Source of the DNA: a virus
Length of the DNA: 37,993 bases
IMG/VR virus record: IMGVR_UViG_3300033886_000045
Span: 1 to 37,993 of that record
Direction: 5' to 3' (one strand)
The translations under genes were made by a program, and so were the position numbers. Positions within the stretch are counted from its first letter, which is position 1. Each line of letters begins with the position of its first letter. Positions 3,879 through 37,993 of this stretch are shown one piece after another. The notes below the pieces were generated by a model. That model did not search any database. It worked only from the letters and a program-made list of their open reading frames with translations, and had not been told where the DNA came from.

Positions 3879-3903
3879 ATGAGCTAGCGCGGATGCTAGC
3901 CAG
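3879..3903 (-). repeat. Dispersed hairpin repeat, inverted copy
   Basis: Read on the minus strand, this is GCTGGCTAGCATCCGCGCTAGCTC-like, the family consensus in opposite orientation. It lies between the stop of the neck gene (3861) and the ribosome binding site of the next gene. It is the only copy seen in this orientation. Confidence 0.7.
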
Positions 3904-23025: not shown

Positions 23026-25028
23026 GCAACGACTTGACGACGGCTGCTTCTCTCGGCTCGCTGGTAGAGCAATTGCTTGGCCAGCGGCCTCGACGGTCGG
23101 GCGGCCAATTGATATTCCACTGTGTGTTGTGCGACGACCAGACCGGGCACTTGTACGTGGACGCCCAGCGCGGTGTATGGAAGTGCCACAAATGTGGTGC
23201 CGAAGGCAACCTGCTGACTCTGATGCGTACCTGGTACCAGCGGTGCCTGGAGCACACGACGCCGCGGCACTACAAACAACTGGCCTCGATGCGGCCTGGC
23301 ATCCCGGCTGGCGTGCTGCGGCGGGCCCGGCTGGCCCTGGACGGCCAACGGTGGCTGATACCCTACTGCAACCTGGACGGCGCCGTGGTCAGTCTTCGCT
23401 GGTGGCAACCCGGCGGCAAGGTGCGCAATTTTCCTGGTTGTACCAGTCTGCTGTTCGGGCTGGAACGTCTGAACGGCCAGGGCCCTGTCTGGCTGTGCGA
23501 GGGGGAATGGGACTCGCTGAGCCTGGAAGGACTGGCCGACGCGACAGACCAGAAACTGTCCGTTGTCGGGCTGCCCGGCGCGAATGTCTTTCGCGACGAG
23601 TGGTTGGACTTCCTCCGCGGTCGCGACTGTGTCCTGGCTCTGGACAATGACCAGGCTGGTCAGTCAGCCACCGCCCGCCTGGCCGAACGGCTCCAGCCGG
23701 TCTGCCAGCGGCTTTCGGTGCTCCAGTGGCCTGCCGACCTGCCTGCGGGCATCAAAGACATACGTGATTACGCCGCCGCGGCCCGTACTCCTCGCAAGGC
23801 CTGGTATGGGCTGCTAAAATTGCTTCAACCGCTGGCTGGCGGCCAGAACACGACTCCTCCCACCAGGAAACTGCCGCTGGTACGGCGTTTTTCAGACGTG
23901 CTGGCCACGTTCCGTAAGACAATCTACTGTGATGAACATACGGAAACCGCCCTGGCGTTGGTCTGTGCCGTTGTGTTGTCGGCCTACTACAAGGCGGAAC
24001 CACTGTGGCTGTTCCTGGTGGCTCCGCCTGGCGGCGGCAAAACGCTGTTGCTGCGATGTCTGGACGGACTGGAGCACGTGGTTTACGTCTCCACGATTAC
24101 CCCTCATCTGCTGGTATCCGGCTACGGGACTCAAGCCGATGACCCTTCACTGTTGCCGCTGCTGGCGGGCAAGTGCCTGGTCTTGAAAGACTACACCGAA
24201 GTGCTCTCCATGCCCTGGGCGGTTCAGGAGGAACTGTTCGGCGTGCTGCGGGGCTGTTACGACGGCCACGTCTACCGCCGTTACGGCAACGGCATTGTGC
24301 GGGAATACAAAGACTGCTGGTTTTCGCTGCTGGCCGGTACGACGCAGGCTATCGAAACCACCCGGCGGGCCTCGCTGGGCGAACGTTTCCTGCGGTACAA
24401 CATGGTACCGCCGACCGACCGGCCGGAACGCCGTATCCGCGCGGCCATGCGTTTCGACACTGGCTGTCTGGTACAACTGTCCGACTGCCTCCAGGGCTTC
24501 CTGAAACACCTGCACGACAGTCTTCCCGACCGGCTGCCACCGCTGCCGACCTGGTTCCGCAACCGCGTCATATTGCTGGCCCAACTGGTGGCATACCTGC
24601 GGGCCGAGGTCTCGCGCGACAGCGGCGGCGGGCTGACCGTCCGACCACAGCCGGAGGTGGCCACGCGGCTGGCCAAACAACTGTGTCGGCTGGCCCAACT
24701 GCTAGCGGTGGTTTACGGCACCCGTCGCATTACCCACCAGGTCTACGGCGTCTGTCGCCAGGTGGCCCTGGACACCTGCGGCAGTTGGGCCGTAGACATC
24801 GTAGACGTGCTGGCCAAGACCCACCAGCCGCTATCACGCGAACAGTTGGCCGAGCGTATCAGTGCCTCGCCAATCACTGTGTGGCGCGTCCTGCGGGACT
24901 TGGTGGAACTGGGCGTTGTGATACCAGCCGGCAAACAACAGACCGGCGGACGGCCTGCCGACCTGTACCAACTGAGTAAAAAGGCACTGAGCTTCTACAA
25001 AAAATCCCTTGAACAAGGTGCTCGTTAG
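23022..25028 (+). CDS. Primase (zinc ribbon + TOPRIM) fused to AAA+ helicase
   Basis: A 668-residue replication protein. A zinc ribbon (C34, C37, C55, C58: CVLC...CHKC) is followed by a TOPRIM domain (LCEGEWDSLSL 159-169 with E160, then LALDNDQAG 205-213 with D208 and D210). It continues with a nucleotide-binding domain having Walker A APPGGGKTLL (334-343) and TTQAIETTRRA further on. The C-terminus ends with a winged-helix-like segment LSREQLAERISASPITVWRV. This architecture differs from T7 gp4, whose helicase is DnaB/RecA-type; here the motor looks AAA+ or SF3-like. It is coupled to the polymerase. The last residues GAR and stop derive from a hairpin repeat at 25018. Confidence 0.85.
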   Translation: MSNDLTTAASLGSLVEQLLGQRPRRSGGQLIFHCVLCDDQTGHLYVDAQRGVWKCHKCGAEGNLLTLMRTWYQRCLEHTTPRHYKQLASMRPGIPAGVLRRARLALDGQRWLIPYCNLDGAVVSLRWWQPGGKVRNFPGCTSLLFGLERLNGQGPVWLCEGEWDSLSLEGLADATDQKLSVVGLPGANVFRDEWLDFLRGRDCVLALDNDQAGQSATARLAERLQPVCQRLSVLQWPADLPAGIKDIRDYAAAARTPRKAWYGLLKLLQPLAGGQNTTPPTRKLPLVRRFSDVLATFRKTIYCDEHTETALALVCAVVLSAYYKAEPLWLFLVAPPGGGKTLLLRCLDGLEHVVYVSTITPHLLVSGYGTQADDPSLLPLLAGKCLVLKDYTEVLSMPWAVQEELFGVLRGCYDGHVYRRYGNGIVREYKDCWFSLLAGTTQAIETTRRASLGERFLRYNMVPPTDRPERRIRAAMRFDTGCLVQLSDCLQGFLKHLHDSLPDRLPPLPTWFRNRVILLAQLVAYLRAEVSRDSGGGLTVRPQPEVATRLAKQLCRLAQLLAVVYGTRRITHQVYGVCRQVALDTCGSWAVDIVDVLAKTHQPLSREQLAERISASPITVWRVLRDLVELGVVIPAGKQQTGGRPADLYQLSKKALSFYKKSLEQGAR

Positions 25029-25042
25029 CATCCCTGCTAGCC
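25018..25042 (+). repeat. Dispersed hairpin repeat at the primase 3' end
   Basis: GTGCTCG then GTTAGCA-TCCC-TGCTAGC, a 7-bp stem (one G-T pair) with a TCCC loop. The repeat encodes the last residues and the TAG stop of the primase-helicase gene. Downstream, 25044-25080 is a GT-rich run without a clear feature. Confidence 0.75.
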
Positions 25043-25917: not shown

Positions 25918-26235
25918 CTGTCGGCGTTGGCGGTGTCAATGGCAGTGGCTGTGGCTATGGCGTTGGCGTTGGCGACGACGTAGCTGCTGGCGCTGGTTAT
26001 GGCCGTGGCTCTGGCTATGACTTTGGCGCAGACACAGACATAGCTGCTGGCGTTGGCTTGGGCGCTGGCGAAGGTACTGTTGCTGGTACAGTCATAGACG
26101 CGGCTGTTGGCTTTGGCTATGGCACTGGCAGCGGCAATGGCCTGGGCGGCGACAAAGACGTAGCTCCTGACCTTGACTATGGCACTGGCATTGGCATTGG
26201 CTTTGGTGGTGGCAAAGACGCGGCTGCTGGCGATG
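25911..26235. repeat. TGGC-rich repeat block 1 with 60-bp units
   Basis: GACGTAGCT-like starts recur at 25911, 25977, 26037, 26097, 26157 and 26217, i.e. one 66-bp and four 60-bp units. Within a unit TGGC recurs about every 6 bases. One plus frame is open throughout (Gly-rich, D-V-A-A-G at each unit start), a second plus frame reads Ala-Leu/Val/Met repeats broken by TAG in most units (CGG in two), and a minus frame is also open. The Gly-rich frame has no start codon at its beginning. Coding status is undecided; a DNA or RNA structural or binding function is equally plausible. Confidence 0.75.
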
Positions 26236-26293: not shown

Positions 26294-26578
26294 ATGAACT
26301 ACCGCAAACTATGCAAACGATTGATTACCGCATTGCGGCTGGAGCGAGAAGACCGCAAAGAACAGGTAGCGAAGCTACAGACGGAGATGCGGTACCTCCG
26401 CGAGGATTTTCAGCAAGAACGTCATTGGTGGCGGCAGCAAGAGGAAGACCGCGAAGCCAGGCTGGATGTCCTCGTGCAAAAACTCATCGCTGCCCACCGG
26501 CGCGGCGACAACCACGAGGTCGAAAGGCTCGCTGACCTGTTGACCTCAGTGTATAGGTGCCGGGCGGGTGCTCGCTAA
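26294..26578 (+). CDS. Small coiled-coil protein, unknown
   Basis: The 94-residue product is almost entirely helical and charged (ALRLEREDRKEQVAKLQTEM then LREDFQQERHWWRQQEEDRE), ending with LADLLTSVYRCRAGAR. The heptad pattern suggests a coiled coil. AGGAAAGGGG precedes the ATG. It lies between the two repeat blocks and its last residues GAR and its stop TAA come from a hairpin repeat at 26568, exactly as for the primase gene. A structural or DNA-bridging role near the repeats is conceivable, but nothing in the sequence shows it. Confidence 0.55.
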   Translation: MNYRKLCKRLITALRLEREDRKEQVAKLQTEMRYLREDFQQERHWWRQQEEDREARLDVLVQKLIAAHRRGDNHEVERLADLLTSVYRCRAGAR

Positions 26579-26594
26579 CATCCGTGTTAGCTCG
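26568..26594 (+). repeat. Dispersed hairpin repeat before repeat block 2
   Basis: GTGCTCGCTAACATCCGTGT then TAGCTC: stem GCTAACA/TGTTAGC with loop TCCG. It supplies the stop codon of the preceding gene. Confidence 0.8.
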
Positions 26595-26599
26595 ACTGA

Positions 26600-27040
26600 C
26601 GTTGGATATGGCGATAGCGGTGGCATTGGCTGTGGCGGTGACATTGACATTGGCAGCGACAAAGACGCGGCTGCTGGCCTTGGCACTGACTGTGGCGTAG
26701 ACGTAGCTGCTGGCGTTGACAGTGGCTTAGACCGTGGCCGTGTCCCTGGCATTGGCATTGGCATTGACGACGCTAATGGCTTTGGCTCTGGCACTGGTTA
26801 TGCCGCTGACACAGGCGACGCTGACGCTCCTGGTTATGCCCATACGGCTGCCGTTGGCTATGACGTTGGCGACGGCTTGGTCGGTGGCATTGGCCCTGGC
26901 GCAGACAAAGACGTAGCTGGCAACACTGGCGATGGTCATGGCCTTGACGTTGACCTTGGCGTTGTTGAAGATGTAGCTGCTGACGATGTTATTGGCACTG
27001 TCGCTGTCAGCGACACAGCCCTTGACAGACAAGGTTGCTG
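26600..27040. repeat. TGGC-rich repeat block 2 upstream of the methyltransferase
   Basis: The same 6-bp TGGC periodicity as block 1. GACG(T/C)(A/G)GCT unit starts occur at 26664, 26700, 26910 and (as GATGTAGCT) 26970, all at multiples of 6. The Gly/Asp-rich plus frame is open from GTG 26568 and runs in frame into the methyltransferase gene, so a 159-residue N-terminal extension cannot be excluded, although the enzyme itself starts cleanly at 27045. A second plus frame again contains TAG at several unit starts. Confidence 0.7.
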
Positions 27041-27044
27041 GTAT

Positions 27045-27944
27045 ATGTCACGCAACTATTTGCGTGCTCCGCTGAAGTGGTTTGGTGGCAAGGGCCAGAT
27101 GATTGCCAAGCTGATGAAACACGTGCCCCTGGGTGGACGTCCGTACTGTGAACCATACATGGGTGCTGCCAACTTGTTCTTCGCCCGCCCACCAGCACCG
27201 GTCGAGGTGCTGAACGACCTGGATGGCGAACTGGTCAACTTGTTCCGCTGTCTTCAGAACCCGGAAACGTTTGGCCCGTTGAAACATCGGCTGCTCTACA
27301 CGTTGTATTCACGAGCCGAGTTCGCTCGCGCGCTGGAAATCCTGCAAGACCCTACAGTTACCGACCCTGTGCTACGCGCATGGGCCTTCTACGTCAAATG
27401 GAACCAGGGCGTCACAGGAGAAGTGCGCACACCAGGCAACTGGAGCCGCAGGTTTGTGTCGGCGTCGGGTATAGCCGGAAATGTGAACAGCTGGATAATG
27501 CGGTTGACGATGCTTGATGACTGGCACAAACGCTTGCTGGTAGCCCAAATCGATAACCGCGACGCTATCGAGGTCATCAGGTACTGGGACACACCGGAGG
27601 CCGTTTTTTACATCGACCCGCCCTATCACCAGGAAACCCGCAGCGAGCACCATGCCTACATGTACGCGGCGGAAACAGACCATTTTCACCACGTGCGGCT
27701 GGTACGCGCGTTGCTGGGCTGTCGCGGCGCGGTTGTCTTGTCTTGTTACGACCATCCGGTCTACGCGCCGCTGCTGGAAGCGGGCTGGCACAAGACAGAA
27801 TACAAGACGGCTTGTCATGCCGCCTGCCGTGGGCGCGACTCTGGCTTGCAAGGCGCTGGGGCAGCGATGCAAAAGGTACCACGGACGGAGGTGGTATTAG
27901 CGAATCCGAAAGCCGTCGCGATGGTCGAGCACCAGAGCAGCTAG
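27045..27944 (+). CDS. DNA adenine methyltransferase, D12 class (Dam-like)
   Basis: The 299-residue product carries the D12 N6-adenine methyltransferase motifs in order: LRAPLKWFGGKGQ (SAM-binding FxGxG-type motif I), CEPYMGAANLFF, NDLDGELVNLFR, and the catalytic AVFYIDPPYHQ (DPPY motif IV). Such enzymes methylate adenine, often in GATC, to protect DNA from restriction or to regulate packaging and expression. ATG 27045 has only a weak AAGG upstream, so translation may instead be coupled to the open repeat frame. The ParB-radical SAM gene lies a few genes downstream. Target site and activity cannot be read from sequence. Confidence 0.85.
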   Translation: MSRNYLRAPLKWFGGKGQMIAKLMKHVPLGGRPYCEPYMGAANLFFARPPAPVEVLNDLDGELVNLFRCLQNPETFGPLKHRLLYTLYSRAEFARALEILQDPTVTDPVLRAWAFYVKWNQGVTGEVRTPGNWSRRFVSASGIAGNVNSWIMRLTMLDDWHKRLLVAQIDNRDAIEVIRYWDTPEAVFYIDPPYHQETRSEHHAYMYAAETDHFHHVRLVRALLGCRGAVVLSCYDHPVYAPLLEAGWHKTEYKTACHAACRGRDSGLQGAGAAMQKVPRTEVVLANPKAVAMVEHQSS

Positions 27945-27951
27945 CAACACA

Positions 27952-27977
27952 GTGTTCGCTAGCATCCGTGCTGGCTC
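27952..27977 (+). repeat. Dispersed hairpin repeat after the methyltransferase gene
   Basis: GTGTTCGCTAGCATCCGTGC then TGGCTC: stem GCTAGCA/TGCTGGC with one G-T pair and loop TCCG. It lies eight bases after the TAG of the methyltransferase gene and directly before the duplicated promoters. Confidence 0.8.
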
Positions 27978-28916: not shown

Positions 28917-28945
28917 CAACAAACCCGAAGGGAGAGTCTTCAGCA

Positions 28946-29788
28946 ATGGAACCGAAACTGCTTGGGTCAGAGTGGTACTTTGACGACACGAATATCGACA
29001 CGCTGGTAGCCTATGCCCGCCAGCACTACCCGGACGGGCTGTTGCCACGTGAAGACCACCCGTGGTATGCGGACTACGGTTCCGCGCCGTTCGCTCGACC
29101 GATAGAGCAGTTGGGTATCCGGAAAATCCCGCGCAGCGAGTGGCCGGAGCGTATCCGCCGTATGGAGCAGTTGCGGGCCAGGGTATCTGACCACTGTGAT
29201 TTTCCCTGCCGCGACCAGGGACGTACCAACTTCTGCTGGGCCAACGGCCCATGTGCCGCGCTGGACATGGCCCGCCGTGTAGCCGGTCTGCCGTTCGAGG
29301 AAACCTCTGCGGCCAGCGTGGCCTGCAAAATCACAGGCTTTCGCAACATCGGCGGTTGGGGCATAGATGCCGTCCGCTATCTAGTCCAGTACGGCGGTGT
29401 GTCTTCTCGCCTGTGGCCGAACGATGCTATCGACCGCCGGTATGATACGCCGGAAGCTAATGCCGACCGCCCACGCCGCCAGGTTGTCGAGTGGTGGGAT
29501 GTGCCGCCGCGCGACTTTGACTGGCTGGCTACACTCTGCCTGCTTGGTATCCCTTGTTCGGTGGGTTATATACGGTGGGCACATGAGGTAACGGCCTGCG
29601 ACCTGGTCGAGCCGTCGCCAGGCCGGTTCGGTATCCGCATCCGCAACAGTTGGGGCAAGTGGGGCAGCCAGAACAGCCGTGGCCAGTGGGGCTTTGCCGT
29701 ACTGGCCGAGTCCGAGGCCACGCCGGACGAGTGTCTGGCCGTCCGCGTAGCGACGGCCTACGGCACGGGCCTGGACGCATCACTGTAG
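28946..29788 (+). CDS. Papain-like cysteine peptidase (C1A fold)
   Basis: The 280-residue product has the complete papain triad: the oxyanion glutamine and active cysteine in RDQGRTNFCWANGP (Q91, C97), a histidine in RWAHEVTAC (H213), and an asparagine in RIRNSWGKWG (N234) followed by the classic GQWGF. The N-terminal 80 residues could be a propeptide or targeting region. C1A peptidases are rare in phages. Its position after the holin-like and lipoprotein genes suggests a lytic endopeptidase attacking peptidoglycan crosslinks or envelope protein, with no other endolysin in sight. Alternatives are a virion protease or a factor acting on host proteins. The ATG 28946 has AAGGGAGAG upstream. Confidence 0.75.
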   Translation: MEPKLLGSEWYFDDTNIDTLVAYARQHYPDGLLPREDHPWYADYGSAPFARPIEQLGIRKIPRSEWPERIRRMEQLRARVSDHCDFPCRDQGRTNFCWANGPCAALDMARRVAGLPFEETSAASVACKITGFRNIGGWGIDAVRYLVQYGGVSSRLWPNDAIDRRYDTPEANADRPRRQVVEWWDVPPRDFDWLATLCLLGIPCSVGYIRWAHEVTACDLVEPSPGRFGIRIRNSWGKWGSQNSRGQWGFAVLAESEATPDECLAVRVATAYGTGLDASL

Positions 29789-29808: not shown

Positions 29809-31500
29809 ATGAGTGCCGACAGCCAGTTTCCTGTCCTCCAGGGCAAACGCCCGCGCAAGCCGAAGGCTGCTGTTGTGGGCAAGCAGCATTTCCCCGTGCG
29901 CATCACGGGAACCGGTTATGCTGCTCCTGAACAGCTTATGCCTCACCCGCTCAACTGGCGCAAGCACCCCCAGTTCCAGCGCGAGAGCCTCAGGGCCATT
30001 CTGGAGCGCATCGGCTGGGTGCAGAACGTCATCGTCAACCGCCGCACGGGCCGCTTGATTGACGGCCACCTGCGCGTGGGGCTAGCGCTGGAACTGAAAG
30101 AGCCGCAAGTTCCGGTGCTCTACGTTGACCTGTCCGAGGAGGAGGAAAAGCTGGTGCTGGCCAGCCTCGACCCGATTGGCGACTACAGCACCGCCGACCT
30201 GTCCACTCTTACCCAGTTGTACGAAGGGATTATCGAGGGCAAAAGCATCCTGCAAAGTGCATCGGCCGACGACAGCCTGCTGGCATTTCTCCAGCACGAG
30301 GCCGACATCAGCATCAACCGGGGGCGCGGGCTGGACAGCCGTATCAGGGTCGGTACTGAAGAGCCTGGCCTGGAAACGAAAGATGTCCCTGAAGACAAGC
30401 GGTACAACGGCGAGGTCTGTGCGGCATCCAGTGGTATCTGCCCCTGGAAGGTGAGTGTGGATATTAGCGTAGGCAAATGCCCGTGCCAGTGTGCGTACTG
30501 CTTCACGGAGGCTGTTCGCCGCAAGGACTACTACTATGCACGGGCCTACCCGGCCTCCGCGCCAACGCTCCGCCGGGCAGTTAGCCTTGCCTCCCGCACG
30601 TCGCAAATAATCTTGACTGGCAACAACCTGGAACCGACAACGACCCCGGACAGCCTGAAACTGCTGCTGAAGCTGGCTGCCGAGGCCGACGTGGCTGTCA
30701 AGGTCAATACAAAGAAACCCAACTTGCTCCTGGAGATAGCACAGGCAGCGGGGTTTCCCTTGTCCAAGCTGTTTGTGTGTGTCAGCATCTCCTGCCGCAA
30801 ACCGCCGTCGGAAGACTGGGAACCGAAAGCGGAATCTGTGGAAAAGCGGATTGCTGGTATCGAGAAGCTAGTCAAGGCAGGAGGGTCGGCCATCTTCTTC
30901 TTCGCACCTGCTGTGCCCCACCCCTTTTTCCTGGAGCAGGTGGAATGGCTGGCCCAGAAAACTGCGGCTGCCGGGGCAGAACGACTGCTGCTGTACCCGC
31001 TGCGCGTGTATCAGCTTGGCCCTGCTGGTTGGATGCGACGGTTGCAAGATGCCCTCCGGGCAGTAATCCCCGACCTGCGGCAGTGGATTGACCGTACCTG
31101 CTACCCGCCCGGTTCCGGATTCAGGCTGGTATCTGGCTCCTATTGCTACAACAATGACTTCCTTCGCCAGGAACTGCTTGTTCCGGCCCGCGACACAGCA
31201 CACCGGCATGGTATGCAATTCAGCATCCTGGATGACCCGTATGGTATTGCCAACCTCGACTTGCAGGACGGGCCGTTTTGCTGCTCCTTCAAAAAAATGT
31301 TACAATGCACGAAACCGGACAGGGACAGCATTATCATGCGGTACTTTGAAGGTCGATTGAAGGAGTTGGCGTTCACTCCTCTTCGACAGACACTGGCTAA
31401 TGAAGAACAGGAGACTGTGATAAACCAGCTTATGTTTGTGAACAATCCAAAGGTGTACCAACGGTATAGCCCAGAGGTACAACGTGCGTTCGGTTGGTAA
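29809..31500 (+). CDS. ParB-like domain fused to radical SAM enzyme
   Basis: The 563-residue product combines two domains rarely seen together. Residues about 25-125 form a ParB/sulfiredoxin-like domain (PHPLNWRKHP, then TGRLIDGHLRVGLALEL with the ParB-type box DGHLR, and LYVDLSEEEEKLVLASLD). Residues from about 210 form a radical SAM domain with the canonical CX3CX2C cluster (C224, C228, C231 in GKCPCQCAYCF), followed by a barrel with AVKVNTKKPNLLLEIA and two further Cys groups near the end (GSYCYNN; DGPFCCSFKKMLQC) that could hold an auxiliary cluster. ParB-type domains bind or cut DNA; radical SAM enzymes can modify nucleic acid or protein (spore photoproduct lyase is one relative in style). 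A DNA or nucleotide modification role is inference. Confidence 0.75.
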   Translation: MSADSQFPVLQGKRPRKPKAAVVGKQHFPVRITGTGYAAPEQLMPHPLNWRKHPQFQRESLRAILERIGWVQNVIVNRRTGRLIDGHLRVGLALELKEPQVPVLYVDLSEEEEKLVLASLDPIGDYSTADLSTLTQLYEGIIEGKSILQSASADDSLLAFLQHEADISINRGRGLDSRIRVGTEEPGLETKDVPEDKRYNGEVCAASSGICPWKVSVDISVGKCPCQCAYCFTEAVRRKDYYYARAYPASAPTLRRAVSLASRTSQIILTGNNLEPTTTPDSLKLLLKLAAEADVAVKVNTKKPNLLLEIAQAAGFPLSKLFVCVSISCRKPPSEDWEPKAESVEKRIAGIEKLVKAGGSAIFFFAPAVPHPFFLEQVEWLAQKTAAAGAERLLLYPLRVYQLGPAGWMRRLQDALRAVIPDLRQWIDRTCYPPGSGFRLVSGSYCYNNDFLRQELLVPARDTAHRHGMQFSILDDPYGIANLDLQDGPFCCSFKKMLQCTKPDRDSIIMRYFEGRLKELAFTPLRQTLANEEQETVINQLMFVNNPKVYQRYSPEVQRAFGW

Positions 31501-31672: not shown

Positions 31673-31797
31673 AGGTGCTCGCTAACATCCTTGTTAGCTC
31701 GGGAATGCTCGCTAACATCCTTGTTAGCTCGGGAATGCTCGCTAACATCCTTGTTAGCTCGGGAATGCTCGCTAACATCCTTGTTAGCTCGGTCGAT
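31673..31797 (+). repeat. Four tandem 30-bp hairpin repeats
   Basis: Four units at 30-bp period, each with GCTCGCTAACATCCTTGTTA in its core: stem GCTAACA/TGTTAGC, loop TCCT. The unit length equals that of the terminal array although the arm sequence differs (GCTAACA versus GCCAGCA), showing compensatory change that conserves pairing. There are no spacers, so it is not a CRISPR array. Confidence 0.9.
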
Positions 31798-31853: not shown

Positions 31854-31919
31854 ATGCCCGGAAGTGGCGAGCGACAGAGAACCGTCCCTCAAACAGGTAC
31901 AGTTCCTCTGGTACTATGA
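31854..31919 (+). CDS. Possible 21-codon leader peptide of the small terminase
   Basis: ATG 31854 is preceded by AAGGG at ideal spacing. The frame reads MPGSGERQRTVPQTGTVPLV, one more Leu, and then TGA, which overlaps the ATG of the small terminase gene (ATGA). That gene has no good ribosome binding site of its own, so coupling to this leader would explain its translation. No sequence conservation can be tested here. Confidence 0.4.
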   Translation: MPGSGERQRTVPQTGTVPLVL

Positions 31920-32410
31920 GCGCTGGCGGTAGAATACCGGCCTTCGAGCGCTTGACGCCGGAGCAATACGGGCAGTTGATTGCTCTGATACGTGCCGGTG
32001 CCTATGACCACGTGGCTGCCCAGGCTGTCGGTGTTACGCGGGAAACGTTTGCCCGCTGGCTGTCCATTGGCCAGCGGGCCCGCGGCGGCAAGTACCGTCA
32101 ATTCTATCTGGACGTTCAGCAGGCCAGGGCATTTGCCCGCGCGCGGGCCGAAGTAAAAGTACTGGAACTCGACCCGCGCTTCTGGCTCCGCTACGGCCCA
32201 GGCAAAGAGGACTGGACGGAAGAGTCGTCCGTCCGCGTTACGTCCACCGTGGAGATAGACCAGGAAGAGGTGGAACAGTTCGAGTCGCTGCTGGGTCAGG
32301 CCGAAAGCGTCTTGACCGTGCTGGAACAGGCTGGTATCTTGCGTCTAAGTGGCCCAACCCCGACGGCTGGGCCGCCGGATGCCGCGCCTGTGCCGGACAC
32401 TGATGGCTGA
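31916..32410 (+). CDS. Terminase small subunit
   Basis: The 164-residue product has an N-terminal helix-turn-helix of the terminase small subunit type: LTPEQYGQLIALIRAGAYDH then VAAQAVGVTRETFARWLSIG, followed by KYRQFYLDVQQARAFARARA, the usual linker helix. The C-terminal part is acidic and helical (EIDQEEVEQFESLLGQAESV), for oligomerisation and large-subunit contact. The small subunit recognises the packaging site and stimulates the large subunit. It overlaps the start of the large subunit by eight bases, which implies coupling. Nearby repeats (31673-31797) could be part of the packaging region, but no evidence shows it. Confidence 0.8.
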   Translation: MSAGGRIPAFERLTPEQYGQLIALIRAGAYDHVAAQAVGVTRETFARWLSIGQRARGGKYRQFYLDVQQARAFARARAEVKVLELDPRFWLRYGPGKEDWTEESSVRVTSTVEIDQEEVEQFESLLGQAESVLTVLEQAGILRLSGPTPTAGPPDAAPVPDTDG

Positions 32411-33896
32411 ACGACCGCTGCGCGACTACCTGACCGACAACCCTCATCTGGTACAGCAACTGGCTGTACCGCGTCTGCCGCGTTTGTACGTGCCACACCG
32501 ACCGACGGTGCGCCAGGCTGCCTTCTTGAACCTGTGGCATCTGGAAGCGCTGTTCGGCGGCGCGGCGGGCGGCGGCAAGTCCGACGCGCTGCTGATGGGC
32601 GCGTGCCAGTACGTCCACGTCCCCGGATACTCCGCGCTCATACTGCGCCGCAGTCTGACGGAGGCCGCCGAATCCCAGGCCATACTGGCCCGTGCGATGG
32701 AGTGGTGGGCAGGCACCGATGTGGTCTGGCGCGGCAATACAGCCCATTTCCCCTCCGGCGCCCGCATTAGCTTCGGCTATCTGCGTACCTATCTGGACTG
32801 CTATCGGTACCAGTCCGCCGAGTACCAGTACATCGCTTTTGACGAACTGACCCAGTTCTACCAGGACGATTACGAATACCTGTTTTCCCGCCTGCGGCGT
32901 CCGCGCTGCCCGCATCATGTGCCGCCTCGACCGCCGGACTTGCAACGCTGTCTGGACTGTATCCGCGTGGCTGCCTTGAGCCGCGTGCCGCTGCGTATGC
33001 GGGCGGCCACCAACCCTGGTGGCCCAGGACACGGCTGGGTGCGCCGTCGGTTCGACATCCGCCGCGTTACGATGCCGGATGGACGGGTGGCCTGGCTGGG
33101 GCACAACCCTGACCGACCGTATTTGCCTGCTACGATTGTCGATAACCCCTATCTGGACCAGGAATCCTACATCCGCAGCCTGTCCCGCATGGACCCGGTA
33201 ACGCGGGAGCAATTGCTGCGCGGCGACTGGACTATCAGCGCCGACGGGCGTATCAAGTCCCATTGGGCGCGATACTACACGGTCGAGGGCAACGCAGTCT
33301 TTCTGGACGGACGGGCCGTCTGTATCAACGAGTGCTGGTGCTTCCAGACCGTTGACCCGGCGGCCAGCAGTCGCGAGGGGCCGGGCGACCCGCACATCTG
33401 GCGTCGCCCGCCTAGCTGGACAGTTGTTTCCACATGGCTGGTTACGCCGACCGGCGACCTGGTGTGGTGGGACGTGCTGCGGTTCCAGCGGGAGGTGCCC
33501 GAAACCATTGCCGCTATCGTAGACAATTACCGCCGCCACACATCCAGCGGGCTGCGTATTGACTTCATCGGTATCGAGTCCGGCGGTCTGGGCATCGGCG
33601 TCTACCAGATGCTGTGCCGCGCTGGGCTGCCTGTCCGTCCGCTGCACCCCCGCAGCCAGGACAAGCTGGTACGCGCGACGGACTTCATCAACCGTTTCGA
33701 GCAGGGCCGCGTATGGCTGCCGCAATCGGCCCCGTGGCTAGAAGACTTGGAAGCAGAGTTGTACAATTGGACTGGCGACCCGAAAGGCCAGACCGACCAG
33801 ATAGACACAGCCGCCTACGCCGCGCTGGTTGTTTCCAGCCATGCGGCAGGCGTCGGCATCGCTAGCTACCAGGATTTACCCGCAGCATGGGCATAG
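32403..33896 (+). CDS. Terminase large subunit
   Basis: The 497-residue product is the packaging motor and headful or site-specific nuclease. The ATPase part has Walker A FGGAAGGGKSDALL (about 51-64), Walker B YIAFDELTQF and a C-motif-like AATNPGGPG. The RNase H-like nuclease domain shows FQTVDPAASS, DFIGIESGGLG and DQIDTAAYAAL, each with the conserved acidic residue. ATG 32403 overlaps the end of the small subunit gene. The stop overlaps the start of the next small ORF. The protein resembles terminases of the gp17-like superfamily with a single chain of about 500 residues. Confidence 0.9.
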   Translation: MAERPLRDYLTDNPHLVQQLAVPRLPRLYVPHRPTVRQAAFLNLWHLEALFGGAAGGGKSDALLMGACQYVHVPGYSALILRRSLTEAAESQAILARAMEWWAGTDVVWRGNTAHFPSGARISFGYLRTYLDCYRYQSAEYQYIAFDELTQFYQDDYEYLFSRLRRPRCPHHVPPRPPDLQRCLDCIRVAALSRVPLRMRAATNPGGPGHGWVRRRFDIRRVTMPDGRVAWLGHNPDRPYLPATIVDNPYLDQESYIRSLSRMDPVTREQLLRGDWTISADGRIKSHWARYYTVEGNAVFLDGRAVCINECWCFQTVDPAASSREGPGDPHIWRRPPSWTVVSTWLVTPTGDLVWWDVLRFQREVPETIAAIVDNYRRHTSSGLRIDFIGIESGGLGIGVYQMLCRAGLPVRPLHPRSQDKLVRATDFINRFEQGRVWLPQSAPWLEDLEAELYNWTGDPKGQTDQIDTAAYAALVVSSHAAGVGIASYQDLPAAWA

Positions 33897-37860: not shown

Positions 37861-37993
37861 CCACTGTGTTCGCCAGCATCCGTGCTGGCTCAAGCGGGTT
37901 CGCCAGCATCCGTGCTGGCTCAAGCGGGTTCGCCAGCATCCGTGCTGGCTCAAGCGGGTTCGCCAGCATCCGTGCTGGCTCAAGCGGAGTGTT
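37861..37993. repeat. Terminal tandem hairpin array, right copy
   Basis: One divergent unit (37861-37890) and three identical 30-bp units (37891-37980), then 13 bases of the sequence following the left array. Bases 37868-37993 equal bases 8-133. The array separates the decoration gene from the capsid gene when the ends are joined. Confidence 0.9.

Follow-up and report, generated by a model that had tools for sequence, protein, structure and literature searches.

The virus record IMGVR_UViG_3300033886_000045, analyzed here as one stretch of 37,993 nucleotides that we call the window, contains an open reading frame (ORF) at positions 29809 to 31500 (+ strand) that encodes a ParB domain, a linker, and a radical SAM domain in one chain of 563 amino acids. 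Sequence profiles and predicted folds identify the two-domain fusion as real, in agreement with an earlier note, made from the sequence alone, which had placed both domains in a single chain. The gene appears to be a fusion of two genes that recurrently lie together in phages, those for ParB and for a spore-photoproduct-lyase-like (SPL-like) radical SAM protein. We give a probability of roughly 0.45 to the reading that, in this fused pair, radical SAM chemistry serves to modify or repair a phage DNA base, the exact reaction being left unspecified. To our knowledge, no characterized protein combines ParB with radical SAM; the earlier note had said the same of this exact combination, and we found no such protein in the open-access literature, nor any mention there of a neighborhood of ParB, methyltransferase-like, and SPL-like radical SAM genes. 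Both domain families were already known, and what is new is the fusion and the recurring three-gene neighborhood.

The ORF is present as previously described, its 563 codons being uninterrupted by a stop and its frame staying open across the domain junction. Both halves resemble the other genes of the record in codon usage more closely than the two alternative frames do, with a score per codon of 0.08 for the radical SAM half versus 0.20 for the ParB half, and GC3 values of 0.66 and 0.79, respectively, compared with 0.69 to 0.77 for the record's other genes. Such values are compatible with a single gene that acquired its second half, and they give no hint of an artifact. An error of assembly or annotation might be suspected, as the sequence comes from an uncultivated virus and the fusion was found nowhere else in the viral, phage, plasmid, and GTDB collections. 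However, the 563-codon frame spans the junction of the two halves, both halves are nearer to the record's genes in codon usage than the other two frames are (more weakly so for the radical SAM half, as its GC3 indicates), and the gene is placed ahead of the terminase genes, where other phages have ParB genes. We consider it very improbable that such an error accounts for the fusion. The Stenotrophomonas phages QH16 and StM171, for example, carry ParB genes between their lysis and terminase genes, the same stretch as that of the fusion gene in the window.

The ParB/Srx domain is N-terminal, at about residues 31 to 129 of the fusion protein. A profile search for the ParB fold, which the earlier note had set as a check, matched the PHROG profiles phrog_498 (E 4e-16) and phrog_620 (E 1e-13) to residues 37 to 145; at the nucleotide level, the phrog_498 match covers 29917 to 30246 (+; residues about 37 to 146) with an E value of 8e-19. 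This profile is named "DNA methyltransferase" and aligns over its ParB part alone (model positions 37 to 148). The ParB box TGRLIDGHLR is indeed present, at residues 80 to 89 (30046 to 30075, +) rather than 81 to 89 as first reported, and N77, R79, T80, D85, G86, and H87 are invariant across seven aligned ParB sequences. In the AlphaFold2 model, which is weak over the whole chain (mean pLDDT of 53), the ParB part reaches a pLDDT of about 57 to 89 and aligns with ParB-N structures at Z scores of 10 to 12 over 92 to 102 residues (VIA-align; 5k5a, Z 12.1). The protein thus displays the feature of the ParB/Srx superfamily, a GHxR-type nucleotide-binding box in a ParB-N fold. In the canonical partition ParB, a CTPase clamp, ParB-N is followed by HTH DNA-binding and C-terminal dimerization domains. 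None of the ParB partition family models matched the window protein, in which ∼65 poorly modeled residues separate ParB-N from the radical SAM domain.

By sequence, the ParB domain belongs to the subtype that is usually N-terminal in phage ParB-DNA methyltransferase fusions. Its closest relatives are ParB domains of phage proteins with 45 to 60% identity, among them three such fusions (L002, L004, and L005). The phrog_498 fusions share this N-terminal subtype at that identity over ∼110 residues but continue into a C-terminal DNA methyltransferase, in whose place the window protein has a radical SAM domain. PADLOC labels the window ParB merely as part of a type II methyltransferase. In a census of the best 80 ParB loci, which hold 82 ParB ORFs, a recognizable DNA methyltransferase lies behind ParB in 32, 47 are short ParB proteins, and two of the remaining 3 fuse ParB to a methyltransferase but contain a threonine-dehydratase-like insert; a radical SAM domain was absent from all 82. 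ParB-methyltransferase fusions containing a threonine-dehydratase-like (PLP enzyme) domain were seen at L141:3989-6331 and L148:2611-4935.

The C-terminal half (residues 195 to 563; 30391 to 31497, +) is assigned to the radical SAM domains as a divergent, distant relative of SPL-like (PA0069/Rv2578c) proteins, a weak match to which motif, profile, and fold contribute jointly. The cluster motif C224-X3-C228-X2-C231 (CPCQCAYC; 30478 to 30501, +) was evident from sequence and alignment, with its three cysteines exactly where the earlier note had put them and one further cysteine, C226, inside it. These three cysteines, together with Y230, align with and are invariant across the phage SPL-like proteins. 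The Pfam Radical_SAM model PF04055 matched with an E value of 0.012, or 2.8e-5 when this record alone was searched; its score of 19.0 bits does not reach the curated cutoff of 29.5, which is a threshold of the model and not a biochemical feature, and motif and fold still give the superfamily placement. NCBIfam matches were marginal and named the SPL-like families PA0069 and Rv2578c.

Comparison with the phage SPL-like proteins by hhalign gave a probability of 94% (E 1e-7). Identity is 16 to 25%, and the window half has in common with these proteins (phrog_13321) the cluster cysteines, a TK pair, a WEP-x-A...R motif, and the TIM-barrel fold. The phage proteins are separate and 230 to 280 amino acids long, whereas the window half is ∼120 residues longer, with extra C-terminal cysteines at residues 431, 446, 491, 492, and 500 (31099 to 31308, +) in a stretch mostly with a pLDDT under 50 and outside the coverage of every relative. 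The earlier note had suggested that C-terminal cysteine groups could bind an auxiliary cluster, a proposal that the model and the relatives leave unsupported. In databases of ORFs from the fetched loci, the best E values of this half were 0.001 to 0.03, and all of its top matches among 9,118 ORFs from fetched viral loci were SPL-like radical SAM proteins. The whole protein had no match in a phmmer search of the PDB; a profile combining the window half with the phage family, and built mostly from the phage sequences, had spore photoproduct lyase as its first PDB match (E 7e-4).

We modeled the radical SAM half with ten phage SPL-like relatives, obtaining a mean pLDDT of 56, with 80 to 94 in the best barrel blocks and weak values outside the barrel. 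All 50 of the top 50 structurally matching chains were radical SAM enzymes (Z 12.1 to 14.4, root mean square deviation 2.9 to 4.6, 186 to 232 residues), including RlmN, BlsE, spore photoproduct lyase, NifB, LipA, viperin, and MoaA. A previous model, made without relatives for this half, had matched PqqE, NifB, viperin, and SPL at Z 8.5 to 9.8, among other TIM barrels. The half has the superfamily feature: strand 1 of a (partial) TIM barrel is followed by a loop that carries the CX3CX2C motif. As the ranks among radical SAM enzymes are tied, the fold gives the superfamily and not the substrate.

These ties leave room for substrates other than DNA. The radical SAM domain could modify a protein or RNA, with ParB serving as a regulatory nucleotide switch or a partner-binding domain: RlmN, which acts on RNA, and RiPP maturases equal SPL in structural rank, and a methyltransferase-like family found beside SPL-like genes in other phages (see below) weakly resembles Trm1, a tRNA methyltransferase. 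We hold this to be improbable, given that the ParB subtype otherwise accompanies DNA methyltransferases and that no peptide substrate gene was noticed beside the fusion. Somewhat more doubtful is an action on the nucleotide pool, in which ParB would bind a nucleoside triphosphate and the radical SAM domain would make a modified or chain-terminating nucleotide, as viperin does. Canonical ParB-N domains bind CTP, CTP- or CDP-bound ParBs occur among the structural matches of the window protein, and viperins are found among those of the radical SAM half (Z 12 to 13), where numerous other radical SAM enzymes rank equally. However, the likeness to viperin is one of fold, by predicted structure alone, the sequence similarity is to the SPL-like group, and the ParB subtype is tied to DNA methyltransferases.

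The relationship to the SPL-like group also raises repair of DNA photolesions in the manner of spore photoproduct lyase, with ParB loading the enzyme on DNA. The lyase (PDB 4fhc) is distantly related to the radical SAM half in sequence and fold, and the PHROG matched by one relative, described below, bears the name "DNA repair photolyase." In photoproduct lyase, catalysis depends on an H-donor cysteine (C140/C141) that follows the second strand. The window protein has no cysteine at residues 232 to 323, hence no counterpart of C140/C141, models of the photoproduct lyase family gave zero matches, and the lyase has no ParB domain. Identity as a spore photoproduct lyase was rejected on account of the missing catalytic cysteine, and we judge a repair function of this kind to be a rather poor candidate.

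A second ParB-radical SAM fusion was not found in the viral, phage, plasmid, or GTDB collections scanned, nor was a close relative of the radical SAM half found in IMG/VR, GTDB contigs, GenBank phages, or plasmids. These scans used short exact peptide patterns or tblastn, which miss divergent relatives, and for the radical SAM half they retrieved a single distant phage protein, L010. The nearest relatives of this half are the SPL-like phage proteins of the L010 family, present in 72 loci. No relative of the window terminase was found in IMG/VR.

A ParB profile scan of the SPL-like loci revealed ParB genes in many of them: 32 of 50 whole records bearing an SPL-like gene contain ParB (phrog_620), as do 21 of the 33 such phage records of at least 20 kb. 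In 18 of these 21, ParB lies within 3 kb of the SPL-like gene, compared with 4.9 expected from uniform placement (0 of 20,000 permutations reached the observed count), and within 1.5 kb the numbers are 15 observed versus 3.0 expected. In L054 and L083, the two genes are near opposite contig ends and would adjoin if the genomes were circular. Thus, the phage SPL-like gene (phrog_13321) is often found near a ParB gene, the same pair that is fused in the window. Being neighbors in some genomes and fused in another, the ParB and radical SAM proteins probably work together.

The commonest order is ParB, a gene of ∼200 codons, and the SPL-like gene, with frames that overlap or nearly touch (L029, L068, L060, L042, and L037). 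Between ParB and the SPL-like gene, this middle gene encodes a class I methyltransferase motif (VLDLFCGxGE...) as well as the conserved sequence DLDAYGSPW, and its product matches methyltransferases and Trm1 weakly; no confident Pfam, PHROGs, or NCBIfam model covers this family. Such a gene of ∼200 amino acids accompanies the ParB/SPL-like pair in about 30 loci (for example, L068:2321-2923 and L042:2191-2943), whose SPL proteins are at least 34% identical, with a median of 47%, showing that the arrangement does not belong to a single recent lineage. The window has no homolog of this intervening gene. In the annotated record of Dulem virus 36, ParB, a hypothetical protein, and a "PA0069 family radical SAM" protein are consecutive, and in L056 a ParB-methyltransferase gene directly follows the SPL-like gene.

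The link is seldom seen when ParB is the starting point, an SPL-like gene being found in the fetched stretch of only 1 of the 80 nearest ParB loci (L152, IMGVR_UViG_3300031669_000042), which suggests that ParB has other partners, mostly methyltransferases. L152, retrieved via ParB and not via radical SAM, has in the same direction a ParB-methyltransferase fusion, a lone ParB gene, ∼0.15 kb, a gene for an SPL-like radical SAM protein of 405 amino acids, and a NUDIX gene. This radical SAM protein was the top non-self phmmer match of the window half (E 0.001 among the 9,118 ORFs), is placed by blastp behind L015 and L010, and is the relative that matches the "DNA repair photolyase" PHROG. Another ParB locus, L132, shares its contig with the SPL-bearing L083. 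Isolated Bacteroidales phages have the SPL-like gene without an annotated ParB beside it. Separately, Bacillus phage 035JT001 (L087, 51394 to 54683) has ParB, a PAPS-reductase-domain protein, a methyltransferase, and a second ParB clustered together, possibly another ParB-linked modification cluster.

In the 16 records in which a large terminase gene was detected, its distance from the SPL-like gene is at most 3 kb in 8 and at most 5 kb in 12. A shared tendency to lie near the terminase may thus explain part of the closeness of ParB and SPL-like genes. In the window, the fusion gene is 0.4 kb upstream of the gene for the small terminase subunit (31916 to 32410, +; phrog_4102, E 1e-10) and 0.85 kb upstream of that for the large subunit (32349 to 33896, +; phrog_979, E 9e-62). 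A more specific proposal is a phage system of ParB, methyltransferase-like, and SPL-like proteins encoded near the terminase, in which ParB would direct radical chemistry onto DNA, so that a new kind of base modification would be made before packaging or while it proceeds; we regard this as unlikely, if worth stating.

Other features of the region were also reconsidered. The fusion gene is not next to an adenine methyltransferase gene, as had been claimed: three ORFs and 1.9 kb intervene, so that this D12-class (Dam-like) gene (26568 to 27944, +; domain in residues 160 to 415) is in the region and not adjacent. Low-complexity repeats make up the first ∼150 residues of its ORF, which may lie outside the translated part. 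Low-complexity repeats coding for Gly, Asp, and Ala, with 18- and 60-bp periods, occupy 25923 to 26056 and 26568 to 27030, before the methyltransferase domain. Directly upstream of the fusion gene, 28943 to 29788 encodes a papain-like (C1) cysteine peptidase (DQG..FCWAN...NSWG; ficin, E 2e-4), which is unexpected in a tailed phage.

The repeat block said to lie beside the fusion gene was found directly downstream, as four tandem 30-bp units (31676 to 31792, +) between the fusion and small terminase genes, each forming a perfect hairpin with a 7-bp stem and a 4-nt loop. The 18-nt hairpin motif GCYARCATCCKTGYTRGC occurs 16 times in the window, compared with 0.02 expected, at 12-119, 3883-3900, 25024-25041, 26574-26591, 27958-27975, 31681-31788, and 37872-37979, mostly in intergenic positions and in arrays of 30-bp period. 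Stem bases vary in pairs (GCCAGCA/TGCTGGC versus GCTAACA/TGTTAGC), so the hairpin pairing seems to be kept. A search of other viral contigs did not retrieve the hairpin sequence. We considered these repeats as the target of the ParB domain and found no evidence for it. The same 30-bp repeat array is present at both record ends (1 to 127 and 37868 to 37993), with a phase mismatch across the join, so that either a circular genome or an assembly break inside this array is probable.

For the reading that we prefer, a fused ParB and SPL-like pair acting on a phage DNA base, the following course can be envisaged. The SPL-like radical SAM domain would stand in for, or supplement, the methyltransferase usually found behind ParB domains of this subtype, and the ParB domain would bind nucleotide or DNA and bring the radical SAM domain to its target. 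C224, C228, and C231 would, from the motif, hold a 4Fe-4S cluster that cleaves S-adenosylmethionine, and the resulting 5'-deoxyadenosyl radical would modify or repair a base of the phage DNA late in infection, around packaging. A modified base would perhaps let the DNA escape restriction, or mark it. Site-directed modification of DNA or of a nucleotide, as the earlier note had suggested, gains indirect support from the methyltransferase-associated ParB subtype and from the ParB/methyltransferase-like/SPL neighborhoods, but nothing that we saw points directly to a modified base. Like the window protein, the isomerase of 5-NedU phages such as Pseudomonas phage M6 is a phage radical SAM enzyme, one considered to act on a DNA base. 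The 5-NedU pathways use a thymidylate-synthase-family gene to make 5-hydroxymethyl-dU, whereas the window record, which may be incomplete, has no match to this family (PF00303), making the known route of thymine hypermodification unlikely; a pathway of that kind was left unsupported.

Uncultivated phages frequently carry SPL-like radical SAM genes, for which we know of no role. The fusion and the recurring ParB and methyltransferase-like neighbors tie these genes to DNA handling, and the link between ParB and radical SAM suggests a phage system that modifies DNA or nucleotides. This raises the testable hypothesis that phages apply radical SAM chemistry to DNA by means of a ParB module, which, if true, would add a route of DNA modification and hence, possibly, of restriction evasion.
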